DNA of 22,832 nucleotides from the IMG/VR virus record IMGVR_UViG_3300021961_000681, positions 1-22,832 of that record, one strand, 5' to 3'. This DNA comes from a virus. A program made the position numbers and the translations under genes. Positions 3,117-9,533 of this stretch are shown one piece after another (the first letter of the stretch is position 1; every line of letters begins with the position of its first letter). The notes under the pieces were generated by a model. The model did no database searches and had not been told where the DNA came from. It saw nothing but the letters and a program-made list of their open reading frames with translations.

Positions 3117-3145
3117 ACTATAACAGATTAGAGCTTATCTGTCAA
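3117..3145 (-). promoter_or_regulatory. Sigma70-type (early) promoter for the 409-aa/uvsW unit
   Basis: The minus strand has TTGACA (3140-3145), exactly 17 bases, then TATAGT (3117-3122). Seven bases later comes the ATG of the 409-aa gene, so the expected start site is at or next to the A of ATG. The -35 box and spacer lie over the end and stop codon of the upstream glycosyltransferase gene. An ACAGAT / ATCTGT inverted repeat overlaps the -35 box and spacer and could be an operator. This is the best match to a host RNA polymerase promoter in the window. Confidence 0.7.
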
Positions 3146-3979
3146 TCGTTTAAGTGGTATACCTTGTGAAATTTCATTAAGTGTAAACTCTGTCCATGCA
3201 TAGTCATTAAGCCATTGCTGTCTGTTTGGCATTAACGGATCTTCTATGTCATGCAAAAAGTCTATGTCATTAGCAGCAGGATATGCTAGACTACTAGGTC
3301 CAACAAATGCAGGCACACCGTTGAGTATACTGTGTATACCAGGATTGCTGCTGTAACTTATTGTTGCCCATACATTATTAAAGTGCATGTCAAAATCGTC
3401 ATAGGTGCCATCAATTTTTACAGGGTCTTGTCTACGAACATTTTTAAATTCTCGTTCAATTTCTGGTAGAGGGCATCTTGGATGTGGACGAAATACAATA
3501 GGTCTATCTGTATGCCTTTGTATTTCTTCAATAGTATTCATGACCCAGTTGCTTATACTGGGCATACCCTGCCATTGTAAACTTTTATCGTGTTGTCCGC
3601 AGATTAATATAAAATCCCCACTGGATCTCCAAGGCTTACAAACCAATCCCAAGCTATCCACGCGAGTGCTATCATTGCCGCTGTTACCAAAGTAACCAGT
3701 TCTGTTAATTCCATTTAATCCTACCTTCCATGTTGTACCTCTTTTAATACCACCAACTTCTAGTACTATAGTCGGCTTATCCATTCTCCTATTACGGTCC
3801 CAGATAGTTTTGTTTGGAGCCATTCGACCACTGAATAATACACTCCAAATAACATCAACGTCGGCGTCATTAGTATTATCGTCAGTAATAAAACCAAGGG
3901 AACGACAACCCGTTCTAAAAGCGTCAAAGACAGGTTTGCTATTAATTGCCCCATATTGTGTCCACAGACTAAACTTCAT
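3128..3979 (-). CDS. GT-B-like capsule-type glycosyltransferase paralogue (283 aa)
   Basis: This protein resembles the C-terminal half of GT-B-fold enzymes of the capsule-synthesis / CDP-glycerol-phosphotransferase type. Visible segments are FILICGQHD near residue 122, RPIVFRPHPRCP near 160, SYSSNPGIHSILNGVPAFVG near 207, and a closing W-x-(D/E)-Y-x-W-x-x-F-T-L pattern. The same order occurs in the 310-aa neighbour and in the C-terminal half of the 579-aa fusion, making three paralogues. It overlaps the 282-aa GT-A gene by 11 bases and is the last gene of the glycan island. The likely role is transfer of a sugar or sugar-phosphate to a cell-surface or virion glycan; donor and acceptor are unknown. 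It is cytoplasmic, with no signal or membrane segment. Confidence 0.75.
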   Translation of the reverse strand: MKFSLWTQYGAINSKPVFDAFRTGCRSLGFITDDNTNDADVDVIWSVLFSGRMAPNKTIWDRNRRMDKPTIVLEVGGIKRGTTWKVGLNGINRTGYFGNSGNDSTRVDSLGLVCKPWRSSGDFILICGQHDKSLQWQGMPSISNWVMNTIEEIQRHTDRPIVFRPHPRCPLPEIEREFKNVRRQDPVKIDGTYDDFDMHFNNVWATISYSSNPGIHSILNGVPAFVGPSSLAYPAANDIDFLHDIEDPLMPNRQQWLNDYAWTEFTLNEISQGIPLKRLTDKL

Positions 3980-4817
3980 TCCAATACTTTTCTTTGCGTT
4001 TGCCCATTAAGTCTTTAGGTAAACTTTTTCCTGCAATTTTACGATCGCCTTTCATATGATCCATCCATTTGCCAAGTACGCTGTTAATTAACGGATGACC
4101 TCCACCGCCTGTCTTGGCTGTTGTATTGTATATGCCGTCGCTATAGTCTAATGATGCATCTTTAAAGTCTTTATACCTGTCAAGTATGATACCAAAGATA
4201 TAGCTGTCGTGCCACTCGTCTAGTGTAAACATGCCGTTATCTGCATCTTCGTACATGCGTTCAAAGTCTTCTAGGAAACTGTGTGCTACTGGATGATTTA
4301 AATTAAAGCCATAAAATCCGCACTCAGGCCATGTTTGACTTCCTTTACCTCTGCCTACATAGGTAACATATTTGTTGTTAGGTAGCAGTTGTGTAAACTC
4401 TGTATAACTCCAGGGACTATGAATATATGTGTCTGCATCCATCCAAACTATCCAAGTAGCTTGACGTTTTTTCCAAACATCAAATACTGCATATACCTTG
4501 TTAGCAAATCGTACAGCATCCCACTTAAATGCTTTATTCCAGTCTCTTGGGCGTTTTGCTTTTATATGATCAGGAGGAATACCGTTTGCCTTAGGTACAT
4601 CTTTCCATTTAGATTTAAAGGCATTTAAACTAGGAAGTGACTGCTTTGCATCTAATATTGTAATTTGATCAGGATTTGTATTTATCGGGTTACAATCTTC
4701 CGCATACACGACTAGTTTAATTTTATTGTCAACGTTTTTTGCAAAACTATCTAAAAATTTTTGACCATATAAATCTAGTCCTGGTTTATGAAATGTCGTT
4801 ACTACTATTATACTCAT
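3969..4817 (-). CDS. GT-A family glycosyltransferase (282 aa)
   Basis: A short GT-A-fold glycosyltransferase. A beta-strand opening (MSIIVVTTFHKPG) leads to the DxD metal and nucleotide-sugar site WMDADTYI (DAD at 127-129). WPECGFYGFN and DEWHDSYIFG are likely acceptor-side loops, and the glycine-rich GGGGHPLINS is followed by GKWMDHMKGDRK near the C-terminus. The DxD motif implies a nucleotide-sugar donor. The gene overlaps the 310-aa gene by four bases (ATGA) and the following 283-aa gene by 11, which points to coupled translation. With the 283-aa partner it mirrors the two halves of the 579-aa fusion. Family-level assignment is firm; the sugar transferred is unknown. Confidence 0.85.
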   Translation of the reverse strand: MSIIVVTTFHKPGLDLYGQKFLDSFAKNVDNKIKLVVYAEDCNPINTNPDQITILDAKQSLPSLNAFKSKWKDVPKANGIPPDHIKAKRPRDWNKAFKWDAVRFANKVYAVFDVWKKRQATWIVWMDADTYIHSPWSYTEFTQLLPNNKYVTYVGRGKGSQTWPECGFYGFNLNHPVAHSFLEDFERMYEDADNGMFTLDEWHDSYIFGIILDRYKDFKDASLDYSDGIYNTTAKTGGGGHPLINSVLGKWMDHMKGDRKIAGKSLPKDLMGKRKEKYWNEV

Positions 4818-5746
4818 GTTTTAATGGCCCATTTCCTTAAATGTTTCCATGCTGTTCCGTTTTTTAACTCATCTAAAGACCAGTGCATTTGTGCCATTTT
4901 ATGTATCCATTTTTCTCTATCAAAATATTTTGGTGTTTCAATTAACGAAAAATCATTGTGTGCAACATCCTTAGATTGACTCCTATCGCAATCCGTAAGA
5001 AAAACTGGAATGCCTTCGATTGCTGCTACTACTCCTGGACTACTGTTATGATTAACAACAGCCCACGCATTGTGTAGATCCTGAAGGAAGTTTTCTGAGT
5101 TACTTATTTTAACATTGGGAATTCTATATTTTATTAACATTTTTTTATGATTTATAATATTTCTGTCGCCCGGATGAAATCTAACCAATATTGTACGCTC
5201 TGAGTACTTTCTAATGCGCTGTATTGTTGCAACTAACCAACTCATTAAACTTTTATTATCCATACTCCACCCGCCGTCCCGCTGACAGCATATCAAAACA
5301 TAATTTCCTTTTTTACTTTCTGGTTTTAACTTTATTCCTAATTTTTTACTAATTAGTTCCCAACGATGAGGATCTGGAGTGTTGTTACAATATTCCCCTG
5401 TTGTTGGAAATATTCCGTCATAGCTATACCTTAAAAACTTTTTTGAATTTCCTTTGTCATATGCTAAAAATAAATTACTGTCTATTATAATACTACGTTT
5501 ATTTCTACGTGTTTGATATTCAAACACTTCTTTTCTTAAGTTTAAATGAAGAGAATTTTTACTACCAGGATGTACAAAACCTTGGACAACAGCTACATCA
5601 ACATCAATAGGGTCGTAATCACAAACAATAGTTCCCCGATCACCAGATGTCCATACACCCTCTATAAAACTTGTTATTACCTGGGGTTTTTCGGGGTTAG
5701 TATTACTAGGCGGTATGCCCATAAGATATGATGCAACAGTAATCAA
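4814..5746 (-). CDS. GT-B-like capsule-type glycosyltransferase paralogue (310 aa, TTG start)
   Basis: This is the second member of the paralogous GT-B-like family. It has YVLICCQRDGGW near residue 165, an RTILVRFHPGDR segment near 197 (the R-x-H-P signature), NHNSSPGVVAAIEGIPVFL near 240, and a closing MAQMHWSLDELKNG pattern. The start chosen is TTG at 5744-5746. It overlaps the TGA of the upstream fusion gene (TTGA) and has a GAGGA Shine-Dalgarno six bases before it. The first ATG would be at 5722, giving 302 aa. The N-terminal third diverges from the paralogues, probably the acceptor-binding half. The substrate is unknown. There is no signal peptide or membrane helix. Confidence 0.75.
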   Translation of the reverse strand: MITVASYLMGIPPSNTNPEKPQVITSFIEGVWTSGDRGTIVCDYDPIDVDVAVVQGFVHPGSKNSLHLNLRKEVFEYQTRRNKRSIIIDSNLFLAYDKGNSKKFLRYSYDGIFPTTGEYCNNTPDPHRWELISKKLGIKLKPESKKGNYVLICCQRDGGWSMDNKSLMSWLVATIQRIRKYSERTILVRFHPGDRNIINHKKMLIKYRIPNVKISNSENFLQDLHNAWAVVNHNSSPGVVAAIEGIPVFLTDCDRSQSKDVAHNDFSLIETPKYFDREKWIHKMAQMHWSLDELKNGTAWKHLRKWAIKT

Positions 5747-7470
5747 TGGTTTTCCTCTAAAATACTAAATGCATAGCCTGACATCATTTCTTTTTTTGTA
5801 AATTGACAGTATGCTAGATGAGAAACAAATGCTATCATTTCATCTTTTGTTGGAATATTTGGATGCTCAATATCTGATAACTTTGAATTGCACAAAATAT
5901 GTGCTGCATTAGGTCCTAGTGCAATTGCAGGTTTTCCGTTTATTAATGATTCTGTAGCTGCAATACTATTGTAGGTTACTAAACAATGAACATCGTCTTT
6001 TAGTGCCGCTTCAATTGTATTAGTACTAATTCTTTCACTACGAAGAGGTTTAAGTCTAACCTCAATTGGCCGATCAGTGTATTTTTTAAGTTCTTGAATT
6101 ACGTTGTTAGTCCATGTTTCAGCATCAGGTTGATTGAATAATTTCATAACTTTATTACTTGGCGGACAAATTAAAATTTTTCTTCCTTTAGTAAAAGGTG
6201 TAAATTTATATCCTGCAGATTGCGCTCTATCAAAAGAACGGTTAACAATTGGTCCTAAATACTGAAGGTCATTTTTTGTAATTCTATGATAAATTTTTGA
6301 TTTGCTTCTTTCATTGCCTAGATACCCGCTATCAATAGAATAAAATGTTCTTCCGGTTTCTTTACAATGATTATATGCAAGTTGTCCTGACTTTGCTAAA
6401 CCTCTAATTACTAACGGTATGTTAGTATTAAGTTCTTCTTCAAAACTGCTAAGGTATCCTCCTACTCCTTTAACAAATGCTTCTAGGTATTCATCATACA
6501 CTATGTTATGTTTTTTATAAGTTTCAGGACCAATATCGTCATTAAAAATTGCTGCTACTTTATTTTCTTTTGTTGCGTCATTCATACCTTGTATTACATT
6601 CTCCTTGGTTATACCATAGTAAGTACCTAACGGATCTATTAAATAATTTTCGTAATTTTTTAACAAAGATTTTGTGCCATTGTTTAACGTAAGGTTGTTA
6701 ACAGTTGTAACTTTTCTCCGTTCCTCTAATTCTTTATCAAGAATCTCTTTGCGTAAATATTCTCTCTCAATTTGATACCATTCTGACGAATACTCACAAT
6801 CATAATAGTTTTTAAACCAAGGGCCTCCCTCAGTGTAATGTATTGCTTTTGGCTTTCCGTCGTTTGGCTCGTTGTACCATCCTACTAACCAATTCCATTC
6901 ATGACTAATTTTACCAATTTCATTGTCTTTTAACCAACTAAATCGATGCAAGTATGCTCCGGTAGTAGTTTCATTGTTAACTAGTTCTTTTGTTAATTTT
7001 TTATTACTAGGGTGTCCACAATTAAAAAGAACCATACTAGACCAGTTTTTCCTAGGATACACTGTTTGTTGCTTGCCGTCCATTTTTATGCCTTCTTTTG
7101 GTGTATAGTCATGGTGTACACACATTACGGCATATTTGTTATCTATTTGATCTATTAAATATTTAATATCTTCTACAAATAAAAAGTCGCAATCAATAAA
7201 CAGTGCCCAGCCAGAAAAATCTGTCAAATGAGGAACTAGGAATCGAGTGAACGTGAACTCGGTGGTAGCTAATGGATCTATACCCCTCCAATAGTTTCCG
7301 CCTTCTCTGAGATTTTTTTGTTTTAGCGGAATAATCGATACAGGTATAGATGAAAGTTTTTCTATGCTGGTTTTACAAACTTGGAATGCTACGTCTTCTC
7401 TAGAATCCCAGCCTACAAATATTTTAAACTTCTCGTCGCTCAATGTCTTCTTCCACACAGTTTGTACCAT
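5743..7470 (-). CDS. Two-domain glycosyltransferase: GT-A domain fused to a GT-B-like capsule domain
   Basis: The ATG at 7470 gives 575 residues; an in-frame TTG at 7482 gives 579, and a TTG at about 7443 has a nearby GGAAG and is also possible. Numbering here uses the 579-aa form. Residues 18-230 form a GT-A domain: KIFVGWDSRED, DxD motif FIDCDFLF (DCD 97-99), HEWNWLVGWYN near 194 and HYTEGGPWFKNY near 215. A charged linker follows. Residues 305-579 repeat the GT-B-like unit of the 310- and 283-aa genes: RKILICPPSN, DRPIEVRLKPL, TYNSIAATESLINGKPAIALG. The HP of the paralogues' FxPHP/FHP segment is replaced by KP, so the second active site may be altered. It overlaps the end of the nucleotidyltransferase-cupin gene and is coupled to the next gene by TTGA. 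Bifunctional glycan assembly is likely. Confidence 0.8.
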   Translation of the reverse strand: MVQTVWKKTLSDEKFKIFVGWDSREDVAFQVCKTSIEKLSSIPVSIIPLKQKNLREGGNYWRGIDPLATTEFTFTRFLVPHLTDFSGWALFIDCDFLFVEDIKYLIDQIDNKYAVMCVHHDYTPKEGIKMDGKQQTVYPRKNWSSMVLFNCGHPSNKKLTKELVNNETTTGAYLHRFSWLKDNEIGKISHEWNWLVGWYNEPNDGKPKAIHYTEGGPWFKNYYDCEYSSEWYQIEREYLRKEILDKELEERRKVTTVNNLTLNNGTKSLLKNYENYLIDPLGTYYGITKENVIQGMNDATKENKVAAIFNDDIGPETYKKHNIVYDEYLEAFVKGVGGYLSSFEEELNTNIPLVIRGLAKSGQLAYNHCKETGRTFYSIDSGYLGNERSKSKIYHRITKNDLQYLGPIVNRSFDRAQSAGYKFTPFTKGRKILICPPSNKVMKLFNQPDAETWTNNVIQELKKYTDRPIEVRLKPLRSERISTNTIEAALKDDVHCLVTYNSIAATESLINGKPAIALGPNAAHILCNSKLSDIEHPNIPTKDEMIAFVSHLAYCQFTKKEMMSGYAFSILEENH

Positions 7471-8206
7471 ATTGGATTTCAACTAATTTTAAGGGTTCTG
7501 TTTGTTCGTTAGCTAGCATATGCCACATACCCTGAGGTATGTGCAATGACTGGTGTTTTTCAAAAACTCCAAAAAGCTCTTGATCTGTACTGTTGTTAAG
7601 TGTATACACTGTTGCAATGCCGCTATCTACAAACCAGTGCTCACTACGATGCTTGTGACGTTGCATTGATAAATGTTTCCCAGGCTCAACTGTAAGTTCT
7701 TTCACTTTGACCTCCTTACTTGATTCATGTAGTACACGATAGTATCCCCAAATACGTTCTGTTTTTGGTGCCTTCCATTCTTCTAATATCCAACTACTAG
7801 AATTTATTTTATTTTTGCCGCCAACTTCCCAAGCAAACTCTAGTCCGTACTTATATTTGTACATTTCGTATTCTGGTGTAGTAGAGTTGTTTCTATCTCC
7901 ACCGTTTGCAAAAACAACTGTGGTACTTTCATCATATTTTGCTAACATGAGATAGATTGCGTGGCAAGCGGTGCCGTCATCATCATTAAACGAAATAACT
8001 TCATCGACACATGCAAGTTCTTTAATAACTGATGCACGTTCTTCAAAAGGCATAAACGGCCTACCTTTTTTACGAGTTAGCCAAGCATCACTATTAAGGC
8101 CAACTACTAGCTTGTTTCCTAGTTTTTTCGCAGCCTTAAAATATTCTATATGTCCAGAATGGAGAGGATCAAACCCACCAGTGATCAATACTACACGTTT
8201 ACTCAT
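7424..8206 (-). CDS. Nucleotidyltransferase-cupin fusion (sugar-nucleotide synthesis)
   Basis: Two domains are joined in 260 residues. Residues 1-145 are a cytidylyltransferase-like HIGH-superfamily nucleotidyltransferase: VVLITGGFDPLHSGHIEYF carries the GxFDPxHxGH motif (H16, H19), and VVFANGGDRNN near 97 is the second nucleotide-binding segment. RfaE2/HldE and glycerol-3-phosphate cytidylyltransferase are relatives. Residues 150-260 are a cupin like the C-terminal phosphomannose-isomerase domain of ManC: RIWGYYRVL, then the metal site in MQRHKHRSEHWFVDSG (H184, H186, E189) and LHIPQGMWH. ManC normally pairs this cupin with a GT-A guanylyltransferase, so this partner is unusual. A plausible role is isomerising and activating a sugar phosphate for the island's transferases. 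A CATAAATA motif lies five bases before the ATG; no Shine-Dalgarno sequence is seen. Confidence 0.85.
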   Translation of the reverse strand: MSKRVVLITGGFDPLHSGHIEYFKAAKKLGNKLVVGLNSDAWLTRKKGRPFMPFEERASVIKELACVDEVISFNDDDGTACHAIYLMLAKYDESTTVVFANGGDRNNSTTPEYEMYKYKYGLEFAWEVGGKNKINSSSWILEEWKAPKTERIWGYYRVLHESSKEVKVKELTVEPGKHLSMQRHKHRSEHWFVDSGIATVYTLNNSTDQELFGVFEKHQSLHIPQGMWHMLANEQTEPLKLVEIQYGTNCVEEDIERREV

Positions 8207-8211
8207 GTAGA

Positions 8212-8219
8212 TATTTATG
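8212..8219 (-). promoter_or_regulatory. CATAAATA late-promoter-like motif before the nucleotidyltransferase-cupin gene
   Basis: The minus strand reads CATAAATATCTACATG. The motif ends five bases before the ATG and contains the TAA stop of the upstream pyruvyl transferase gene. Used as a -10 element, it would yield an essentially leaderless transcript. Confidence 0.35.
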
Positions 8220-8913
8220 TGTGCAATTTATTAAAAACTTCCTTAATTGGAGTTAAGCTTATCTGGCCAACTGAAAATATAGGATCGTCTAAAGACGAAA
8301 GTTTAGCTTCTAATTTTAATGCAGCATAATGATCTTTAAATTTAATGTTATCACCTTTTATATTGTTTGAAAATTTGACCCAAGCTGCTGGTATGCCATA
8401 TGCATGTGCTGCTATTATTCCATGTAATGAACTTGATATAATAGTTCTACATTTAGTTATTTCTTTTGCAACATCTAAAGGATTTGCATTTTCTAATTTT
8501 ATAATTTTATAATTAGGAAATAAATTTTTAACCAACTCATAATCTACGTAATGGGGAGTAATTCCTACATCAAATTCTTTTTTACTTTCATTACAGAATA
8601 ACGGTAGTAGTAATGCAGGGTCGCCATAAATTTCAGGACAATTACCACCACACTCTATAATACGTTTCCGTGTTAGTGGACCTCTTACAAATCGGTAGTC
8701 AGCATTTGGATTTAATTTGTGTTTTGTATGCATAGTTCCACTACCAAGAACTATCATGTTATCTGTAGCTCTATGTACAATAGAACCTATACACATTGCA
8801 GAAGCATTGCTTGGAGATTTAACCATTTTGTGTTTTATATTAAAATAATCTAAAACATAAGGGGTTAAGATATCTCCAAAGTTAGGACGAGCATTTGACC
8901 AATAGACGTTCAT
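8215..8913 (-). CDS. Polysaccharide pyruvyl transferase family protein
   Basis: This 232-residue protein matches the polysaccharide pyruvyl transferase family (PF04230 type). It has NFGDILTPYVLDYF near the N-terminus, a glycine-rich VLGSGTMH strand, VRGPLTRKRI, YGDPALLLP, and the signature SSSLHGIIAAHAYGIPAAWV near residue 161. Family members add a pyruvate ketal from phosphoenolpyruvate to a sugar, giving the polysaccharide a negative charge; some act as other transferases. It is shorter than many members (about 300 aa) but keeps both conserved ends. It overlaps the FkbM gene by four bases (ATGA). Capping or decorating a phage-directed glycan is the likely job. Confidence 0.85.
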   Translation of the reverse strand: MNVYWSNARPNFGDILTPYVLDYFNIKHKMVKSPSNASAMCIGSIVHRATDNMIVLGSGTMHTKHKLNPNADYRFVRGPLTRKRIIECGGNCPEIYGDPALLLPLFCNESKKEFDVGITPHYVDYELVKNLFPNYKIIKLENANPLDVAKEITKCRTIISSSLHGIIAAHAYGIPAAWVKFSNNIKGDNIKFKDHYAALKLEAKLSSLDDPIFSVGQISLTPIKEVFNKLHT

Positions 8914-9533
8914 GACCAGCCAAATATATAATCTTTTCTGATATTAGTGTGTTCTATTGCGCCAATTGATTTAAGAAATTTTCCAGCACAATAATCTGTA
9001 TCTGGATGTTGTTCTACAACAATAATTGGTTTGTACTTTAAGATTGTTTTTTCTGCACCTTGCAGAACTTGCATGTCGTGTCTTTCACAATCTACCTTTA
9101 ATAATCCGAATTTAGGTAGATTTAACTCGTCTAGTGTCTTTAACTCTATTGATCCTGCACTATTTTCAATAACATAACTTGAACCAGTATTTTCGCTATC
9201 ATATACCATGTTAATATTACCTGAAACATTGCTAAGTGCAAACTCGTTTATTTTAACAGGAAGCCCGGTAACATTAAGTTTTAAACATTCTAAAACTTGA
9301 GGGATAGGCTCAAATGCAATGACTTGACTAAACTTTTCAGTTAGCGGCTTTGCCCATAGTCCAACATTTGCGCCCACATCTACTGCTATACTAAAATCTG
9401 TTACATATTTGTATGCTACATCTCTTACATCGTCTTGGTACTGCGCAGGCCCGCCATTTTTTACACGCTTAGTTATTAACCGTTCAAAATGACTGTCGGT
9501 ATCTGGCATCCAGTATTCATAAACTTTTTTCAT
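8910..9533 (-). CDS. FkbM-family SAM-dependent methyltransferase
   Basis: A 207-residue Rossmann-fold methyltransferase. SAM-binding motif I is VDVGANVGLW (51-60), the acidic motif is AFEPIPQV (73-80), and the FkbM-type LKVDCERHDMQVLQGAE lies near 145. FkbM enzymes O-methylate sugars and small molecules; in glycan clusters they typically methylate hydroxyl groups of the growing or terminal sugar. It is coupled on both sides by ATGA overlaps, to the 212-aa glycosyltransferase upstream and the pyruvyl transferase downstream. The protein is soluble, and the exact methyl acceptor is unknown. DNA methylation is unlikely because no N6-adenine or C5-cytosine methyltransferase motif is present. Confidence 0.88.
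   Translation of the reverse strand: MKKVYEYWMPDTDSHFERLITKRVKNGGPAQYQDDVRDVAYKYVTDFSIAVDVGANVGLWAKPLTEKFSQVIAFEPIPQVLECLKLNVTGLPVKINEFALSNVSGNINMVYDSENTGSSYVIENSAGSIELKTLDELNLPKFGLLKVDCERHDMQVLQGAEKTILKYKPIIVVEQHPDTDYCAGKFLKSIGAIEHTNIRKDYIFGWS

Follow-up and report, generated by a model that had tools for sequence, protein, structure and literature searches.

A phage gene joins a HIGH-type nucleotidyltransferase to a ManC-type cupin

We analysed a 22,832-nucleotide stretch of viral DNA (IMG/VR record IMGVR_UViG_3300021961_000681, positions 1 to 22,832), the whole of which is referred to here as the window. Inspection of its list of open reading frames (ORFs) showed uvsX, gp32, terminase, sheath and tube genes, identifying the window as part of a T4-like phage. 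Its minus strand encodes a 260-residue protein in which a HIGH-type nucleotidyltransferase (NT) resembling RfaE2 and TagD (residues 3-144) is followed by a ManC-type PF01050 cupin (residues 149-259; Table 1). The original prediction, made from the sequence of the window, had recognised this fusion and given its exact coordinates, leaving the minus strand unstated.

At least 598 stretches in IMG/VR encode relatives of the fusion, partial matches included, and the best 80 of these are nearly all end-to-end relatives with 59-73% identity, in which the linker between the domains is strongly conserved (NSSSW.L..WK.....R.WG..R in the alignment of relatives). Because about 80 loci carry the fusion, nearly all at full length, and because the linker is conserved, we conclude that the fusion is real, and we rejected a chance or assembly join as its origin. 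An AlphaFold2 model built from 32 relatives contained both folds (predicted local distance difference test score, pLDDT, 91.5; predicted template modelling score, pTM, 0.58); the mutual placement of the two domains in this model is uncertain.

None of 50,697 cultured-phage records covered 80% of the fusion, the nearest matches being standalone cyanophage NTs, and a search of plasmids did not find the full-length fusion. Full-length bacterial fusions (36-57% identity) are present in SAR11, SAR86, other marine Gammaproteobacteria, a Neomarinimicrobiota metagenome-assembled genome (MAG), Rhodobacteraceae and Bacteroidetes MAGs, and Patescibacteria; a few of them, e.g. those of loci L087 and L095 with viral-looking neighbours, may come from phage contigs that ended up in bacterial bins. 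All 13 genomes sampled from the SAR11 family with a 90% completeness filter carry the fusion, one of them as a contig-end fragment, and its site is conserved, with polA, the fusion and an MFS transporter gene following each other (identities by inspection).

Table 1 Features on and around the fusion gene in the window
Feature	Position	Strand	Support
NT-cupin fusion gene (P0001), 260 residues	7424..8206	minus	ORF and translation; Pfam/NCBIfam; full-length relatives
HIGH-type NT domain, residues 3-144	7775..8200	minus	PF01467 57.1 bits; phrog_7878; VIA-align
GFDPLHSGH nucleotide-binding motif, residues 11-19	8150..8176	minus	Conservation
FANGGDR signature of this NT family, residues 99-105	7892..7912	minus	Conservation
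Second NT motif NSSS (within KINSSSWIL), residues 135-138	7793..7804	minus	At the position of the RfaE2 STT/GCT ISTT motif, by inspection
ManC-type PF01050 cupin, residues 149-259 (predicted mannose-6-phosphate isomerase half)	7430..7762	minus	Pfam; VIA-align
Predicted metal ligands Q182, H184, E189 (motif QxHxxRxE)	7640..7663	minus	Invariance; alignment to 7zvy
Predicted fourth metal ligand H229	7520..7522	minus	Invariance
GT8-like (residues ~20-243) plus GT-B-like protein, 579 residues, next gene downstream	5743..7482	minus	phrog_28018 3e-54
GT-B-like protein, KpsC/WbbB fold	4814..5746	minus	Model pLDDT 94.5; VIA-align Z 14.2 to KpsC 8fux/6mgc
Further member of the GT-B-like family	3128..3979	minus	BLASTP cluster shared with 4814..5746
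Polysaccharide pyruvyl transferase family, upstream neighbour	8215..8913	minus	PF04230 55.1 bits
FkbM-type methyltransferase, upstream neighbour	8910..9533	minus	PF05050 46.8 bits

The cupin half carries a predicted isomerase metal site

The cupin half is a member of PF01050 (MannoseP_isomer; 90.1 bits, cut-off 23.6) and matches the C-terminus of the ManC model TIGR01479 (84.2 bits, cut-off 372.95, profile positions 358-461 only), against which related cupins from SAR11 and one Patescibacterial genome scored 122.9 and 153.6 bits, respectively. The protein has the PF01050 cupin and the predicted phosphomannose isomerase (PMI) metal site of ManC-type enzymes and lacks their GT-A guanylyltransferase domain and a TIGR01479 score above cut-off. 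In fold comparisons with VIA-align, in which Z differences below 1 were treated as ties, the best match of the cupin was Thermococcus PMI 7zvy (Z 16.4; root-mean-square deviation (rmsd) 1.9 over 107 aligned residues), and the CapF cupin was among the nearest folds (Z 15.7). Alignment to the metal site of 7zvy places Q182 and H184 on the two His of its HxH, Gln replacing the first, E189 on its Glu and H229 on its His, and none of this quartet varies among 66 distinct phage sequences or among the bacterial sequences that could be read. Residue 186, the second His of HKH, was dropped as a candidate ligand, as relatives have many different residues there (D, E, N, K and others), whereas the quartet is constant.

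Gln-x-His...Glu...His is the ligand set of type I PMIs, and the pattern is also found in ManC. Two features would suit a cupin that lacks isomerase activity and binds sugar in a structural or regulatory role, or one that acts as an epimerase in the way of CapF: Gln stands where the canonical HxH has its first His, and the CapF cupin is close in fold. We consider this improbable: the quartet used by ManC and type I PMIs is invariant here, the top fold match is a PMI, and type I PMI is absent from the genomes tested (see below). Lack of metal binding by the cupin had been named among the observations that would undermine the original prediction, and with an invariant predicted site this objection falls.

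The nucleotidyltransferase half has an invariant signature of its own

Based on its match to PF01467 (CTP_transf_like; 57.1 bits, cut-off 21, residues 8-86) and its HxGH motif, the NT belongs to the cytidylyltransferase-like superfamily, and its similarity to phage and standalone NTs extends beyond the Pfam region to residues 3-144. Three motifs stand out in the alignments: GGFDPxHxGH (F12, D13, H16, G18, H19) is invariant in the 66 distinct phage sequences and every readable bacterial one; N101, G102, G103, D104 and R105 of the FANGGDR signature are invariant in the 66 phage and 77 bacterial-set sequences; and S136-S138 are so in the 66 phage and the readable bacterial sequences. The nearest folds were RfaE-like 3glv (Z 16.0), the glycerol-3-phosphate cytidylyltransferases (GCT) TagD/TarD (15.1, for 2b7l, and 14.7), HldC 5xf2 (14.6) and the cytidylyltransferase (CyTase) of Fom1 (14.2). 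Yet the NT reached 76.8 bits against TIGR02199 (RfaE2/HldC heptose-1-phosphate adenylyltransferase; cut-off 181.5, residues 3-78) and 48.2 bits against TIGR01518 (GCT; cut-off 165.4), below the threshold of both families.

RfaE2/HldE-C and HldC share the HIGH-type fold with the fusion NT, for which TIGR02199 is the nearest NCBIfam equivalog-domain match; HldC is 32% identical to it in structural alignment, and these enzymes act on the C1-phosphate of a manno-configured sugar, as we propose for the fusion NT. Unlike them, the fusion NT has FANGGDR and a fused or adjacent PMI cupin. Because the family cut-offs were missed and no heptose genes were seen beside the fusion, a role in the heptose pathway was rejected. 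TagD/TarD (1coz, 2b7l) are alike in fold and HxGH motif, but no teichoic-acid genes were seen near the fusion. Standalone NTs of the T4-like cyanophages S-SSM7, P-TIM68 and S-SCSM2R (phrog_7878) are 50-54% identical to the fusion NT over the whole domain but have no fused cupin, S-SCSM2R having a separate PF01050-type mannose-6-phosphate isomerase (MPI) elsewhere in its genome. These standalone NTs lie between gp43 (DNA polymerase) and uvsX (L001:5992-6456, L002:5992-6453, L003:5992-6453) and are annotated as 'heptose 7-phosphate kinase/heptose 1-phosphate adenyltransferase' or 'glycerol-3-phosphate cytidylyltransferase', with scores far below the cut-offs of these families.

Gene neighbourhoods place the fusion beside GDP-mannose enzymes

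While the window itself has no gmd, the gene lies directly upstream of the fusion in seven other phage loci (L069, L071, L073, L076, L080, L082, L083), where the two frames as called overlap by 14 bp in six of the seven and by more in L076; the two of these gmd genes that were scored reached 499 and 510 bits against TIGR01472 (cut-off 415). Five places downstream of the fusion, six of the seven loci have a GDP-mannose 3,5-epimerase (GME)-type gene, and the L069 copy matches GDP-mannose-3',5'-epimerase 2c59 with 309.7 bits (E 2.6e-91). With gmd upstream and GME downstream, the fusion therefore lies between genes whose products each use GDP-mannose as the starting compound. The seven loci belong to a single syntenic group and do not count as independent events.

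In Patescibacteria, the association extends into the reading frame, as NT, cupin and Gmd of L158 (L158:3413-5410) form one 665-residue ORF (Gmd at residues 304-642, 587 bits). L211, L219 and L210 have separate genes in the order NT, HAD and cupin, the NT of L219 lying on the opposite strand. The HAD protein passes PF03332 (eukaryotic phosphomannomutase, PMM) in L211 and L219 (38-50 bits, cut-off 22.4) and matches generic HAD models only in L210, and in L220 the fusion adjoins a PF03332 HAD gene. GH130 mannooligosaccharide phosphorylases release mannose-1-phosphate, and genes of this type close the NT/cupin row in L210 (L210:4238-5425), L211 (L211:1-566; PF04041) and L212 (L212:1-1117; by inspection). 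In L212 and L209, a membrane protein instead of the HAD lies between NT and cupin (DUF1361 in L212; L209 alike by inspection). The order is reversed in L214:3494-4159 and L217:3164-4039 (minus), where a shortened cupin-like N-terminus with weak hidden Markov model hits, apparently repeated in L217, precedes the NT; this shortened cupin may be degenerate. By inspection, both reverse-order genes adjoin gmd and an fcl-like gene, and that of L214 also a GT11-like gene.

This gene company also bears on the idea that the NT couples a nucleotide to the cupin product (e.g. mannose-6-phosphate) at its terminal phosphate, giving an NDP-6-sugar in the manner of CDP-glycerol and CDP-ribitol with no need for a mutase. 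TagD-like NTs do act on terminal phosphates, many phages with the fusion show no recognised mutase or Gmd in the stretch seen, and the GT-B-like neighbours of the fusion (see below) belong to an unassigned family. Nevertheless, Gmd and GME require a C1-linked GDP-sugar, and several Patescibacteria have a PMM-like HAD gene that separates NT from cupin or adjoins the fusion, with GH130 nearby. We regard the idea as very improbable.

The nucleotidyltransferase co-occurs with Gmd

Among 25 genomes with the fusion, Gmd exceeded its cut-off in 12, TIGR01479 did so in none, and a GT-A ManC domain was found in a single one (Neomarinimicrobiota). Type I PMI was absent from all 29 genomes tested, bifunctional phosphoglucose isomerase/PMI not having been searched for, and enzymes of the phosphoglucomutase (PGM)/PMM family were present in 23 of the 29, with two each in most SAR11. 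The PF00483 proteins inspected were GlmU, RmlA or RmlA-like, MurU, RfbF and unassigned CBS-type enzymes; in the SAR11 genome G005, which has Gmd, GlmU was the sole PF00483 protein at E<=1e-10.

Co-occurrence was quantified in 247 genomes of the Patescibacterial order to which genome G014 belongs, 51 of which have the NT and 52 Gmd. NT and Gmd occur together in 30 genomes compared with 10.7 expected (Fisher test, p 9e-12, odds ratio 11); in 15 of these 30 the two genes are on one contig, and in five they are within 2 kb. As a control, RmlB was found with the NT in 8 genomes compared with 4.7 expected (p 0.07), and the link between NT and Gmd persisted after removal of the RmlB-positive genomes (22 compared with 7.5 expected, p 5e-9). 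By contrast, the PF01050 cupin alone was not linked to Gmd (14 compared with 12.6 expected), and therefore the NT, not the cupin, is the half that goes with GDP-mannose use. Just one of the 52 Gmd-bearing Patescibacteria has a ManC GT-A domain.

Glycosyltransferase-like genes near the fusion

The downstream neighbour of the fusion in the window scored 18.7 bits against Glyco_transf_8, below the cut-off of 24.3. Such a GT8-like part directly follows the fusion in many phages, and the GT8-like/GT-B-like cluster is at position +1 in 54 loci. The ORF list gives this neighbour a TTG start at 7482, which lies within the fusion gene (overlap 7424-7482); several relatives start about 19 codons later, and therefore its true start is probably further down. 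The GT-B-like family (3128-3979, 4814-5746 and residues ~308-579 of 5743-7482) has no Pfam match and forms tandem arrays downstream of the fusion; the cluster that holds it comprises 193 copies in 56 loci, GT8-like parts counted in. The protein of 4814-5746 shares the GT-B fold of the KpsC/WbbB retaining Kdo transferases (rmsd 4.0-4.2 over 247-249 aligned residues). In the sequence alignment of the family, no column that is invariant throughout holds an Asp, the residue type of the KpsC nucleophile (D160). Possibly, this phage family with the fold of the KpsC/WbbB/KrkA Kdo transferases is a new glycosyltransferase family. As a clue to the sugar donor, the fold was ambiguous (KpsC/WbbB are CMP-Kdo enzymes) and was not used.

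In nine loci (L032, L033, L037, L040, L046, L052, L066, L078, L085), the fusion is part of a conserved series of phage genes and has no glycosyltransferases next to it, the neighbours including, by inspection, an RNase H-like exonuclease and a ligase-like protein; in this group the product may therefore serve elsewhere in the genome or in the host.

A proposed route to GDP-mannose

The fusion is conserved at both active-site motifs, is widely distributed and is linked to Gmd, GME and PMM-like genes. We propose that it is quite probably a bifunctional mannose-6-phosphate isomerase/mannose-1-phosphate guanylyltransferase, that is, a functional analogue of ManC/AlgA that makes GDP-mannose; its catalytic activity, mannose-1-phosphate as the substrate and GTP as the nucleotide are what we infer. 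Specifically, the cupin would interconvert fructose-6-phosphate and mannose-6-phosphate, using a metal bound by the quartet; a separate PMM, from the host or a nearby gene, would shift the phosphate to C1; and the HIGH-type N-terminal domain would couple mannose-1-phosphate to GMP from GTP with release of pyrophosphate. The phage presumably feeds GDP-mannose or sugars derived from it to its own glycosyltransferases, and in the window, without gmd, the product would be taken directly by the transferases of the island. It also appears likely, if a little less so, that such proteins constitute a non-orthologous family of GDP-mannose synthases, in which a HIGH-type mannose-1-phosphate guanylyltransferase fused to or beside a ManC cupin replaces GT-A ManC as a core enzyme in SAR11, SAR86 and many Patescibacteria, and which is carried by many uncultivated marine phages.

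ManC/AlgA (TIGR01479, type II PMI) and the fusion have in common the C-terminal PF01050 cupin, the proposed two-step division and the gene company (gmd, fcl-like and PMM-like genes), whereas the GT-A guanylyltransferase of ~350 residues is replaced in the fusion by a ~140-residue HIGH-type NT of unrelated fold. The architecture keeps the logic of ManC and exchanges one half. The original prediction had drawn this parallel, with an RfaE2/GCT-like NT in place of the GT-A domain beside the same cupin as a different way to couple isomerisation and activation, and in this respect it holds. Its suggestion that the product may be an unusual nucleotide sugar does not fit our data; because of the gene neighbours, the one-frame fusion to Gmd, the co-occurrence with Gmd and the absence of ManC and type I PMI, we favour ordinary GDP-mannose. 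A common fusion with a known unrelated role was to have counted against it; the fusion is indeed common, but an unrelated role was not found.

Several observations weigh against a GDP-mannose synthase. Among characterised NTs, the nearest ones (GCT, HldC, Fom1 CyTase) work with CTP or ATP, and no assayed member of the NT-cupin family was found. For the PMM-like HAD, the nearest match is Lactococcus alpha-phosphoglucomutase 4bnd, because of which a route through glucose-1-phosphate is formally conceivable. Gmd was not over its cut-off in 13 of the 25 fusion genomes, which were chosen for carrying the fusion and in several cases are perhaps incompletely assembled. The Fisher test makes no correction for shared ancestry. 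Also, the SAR11 fusion gene sits outside any sugar cluster, and the GT-B neighbours in the window share the fold of CMP-Kdo-dependent KpsC/WbbB and not that of a mannosyltransferase.

We weighed whether the NT activates another sugar-1-phosphate (heptose-1-phosphate, glucose-1-phosphate or a rarer hexose-1-phosphate) with ATP, CTP or UTP, the cupin supplying or adjusting the matching sugar phosphate and the link to Gmd reflecting shared polysaccharide clusters only. We consider this unlikely and retain it mainly because of the HAD nearest alpha-phosphoglucomutase and the use of CTP or ATP by characterised NT relatives; the nearest solved NTs (RfaE-like 3glv, HldC and GCT) and the UDP-sugar-dehydrogenase-like gene that flanks the fusion in several SAR86 loci agree with it as well. 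However, the NT scores far below the cut-offs for the heptose and glycerol-3-phosphate enzymes, and RmlB, likewise a polysaccharide-cluster gene, associates only weakly with the NT. The other-sugar explanation also leaves unexplained the one-frame NT-cupin-Gmd protein, the phage loci with overlapping gmd and with GME, and the Gmd genomes without ManC.

Relation to described phage genes

Cyanophage S-SCSM1 has a single-domain cupin MPI of the same cupin family, with GDP-mannose 4,6-dehydratase, GDP-L-fucose synthase and GDP-mannose 3,5-epimerase a few genes beyond it (PMC9602691); we recognised no FANGGDR NT in this phage. The 267 metagenomic cyanophage MPIs retrieved in that study were all monofunctional, and the fused form is outside that account (PMC9602691). 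In Synechococcus phage RN05-S, a 'cytidylyltransferase - GDP-mannose 4,6 dehydratase' beside an MPI was considered as a split fusion and rejected, as FANGGDR is missing from its NT and NCBIfam assigns the dehydratase to RmlB. The RN05-S gene annotated 'GDP-mannose 4,6 dehydratase' (L224:11695-12612) scores as RmlB dTDP-glucose 4,6-dehydratase (382 bits, cut-off 365) and is probably misannotated. We found no prior description of an NT-cupin fusion or a HIGH-type GDP-mannose synthase in the open-access literature, subscription journals being mostly outside this coverage.

Implications

Surface sugars such as mannose, fucose, L-galactose and their relatives derive from GDP-mannose, and the NT-cupin gene is common to marine phages and the ocean's most abundant bacteria. 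If our proposal is correct, genomes of SAR11, SAR86 and Patescibacteria that seem unable to make GDP-mannose can make it, and the responsible enzyme family is one whose named members are currently annotated as heptose or glycerol-phosphate enzymes. One half of a bifunctional enzyme would then have been swapped for an unrelated fold while its cupin partner was kept. The fusion might also explain part of the abundant 'mannose-6-phosphate isomerase' genes noted in viral metagenomes (PMC9602691).

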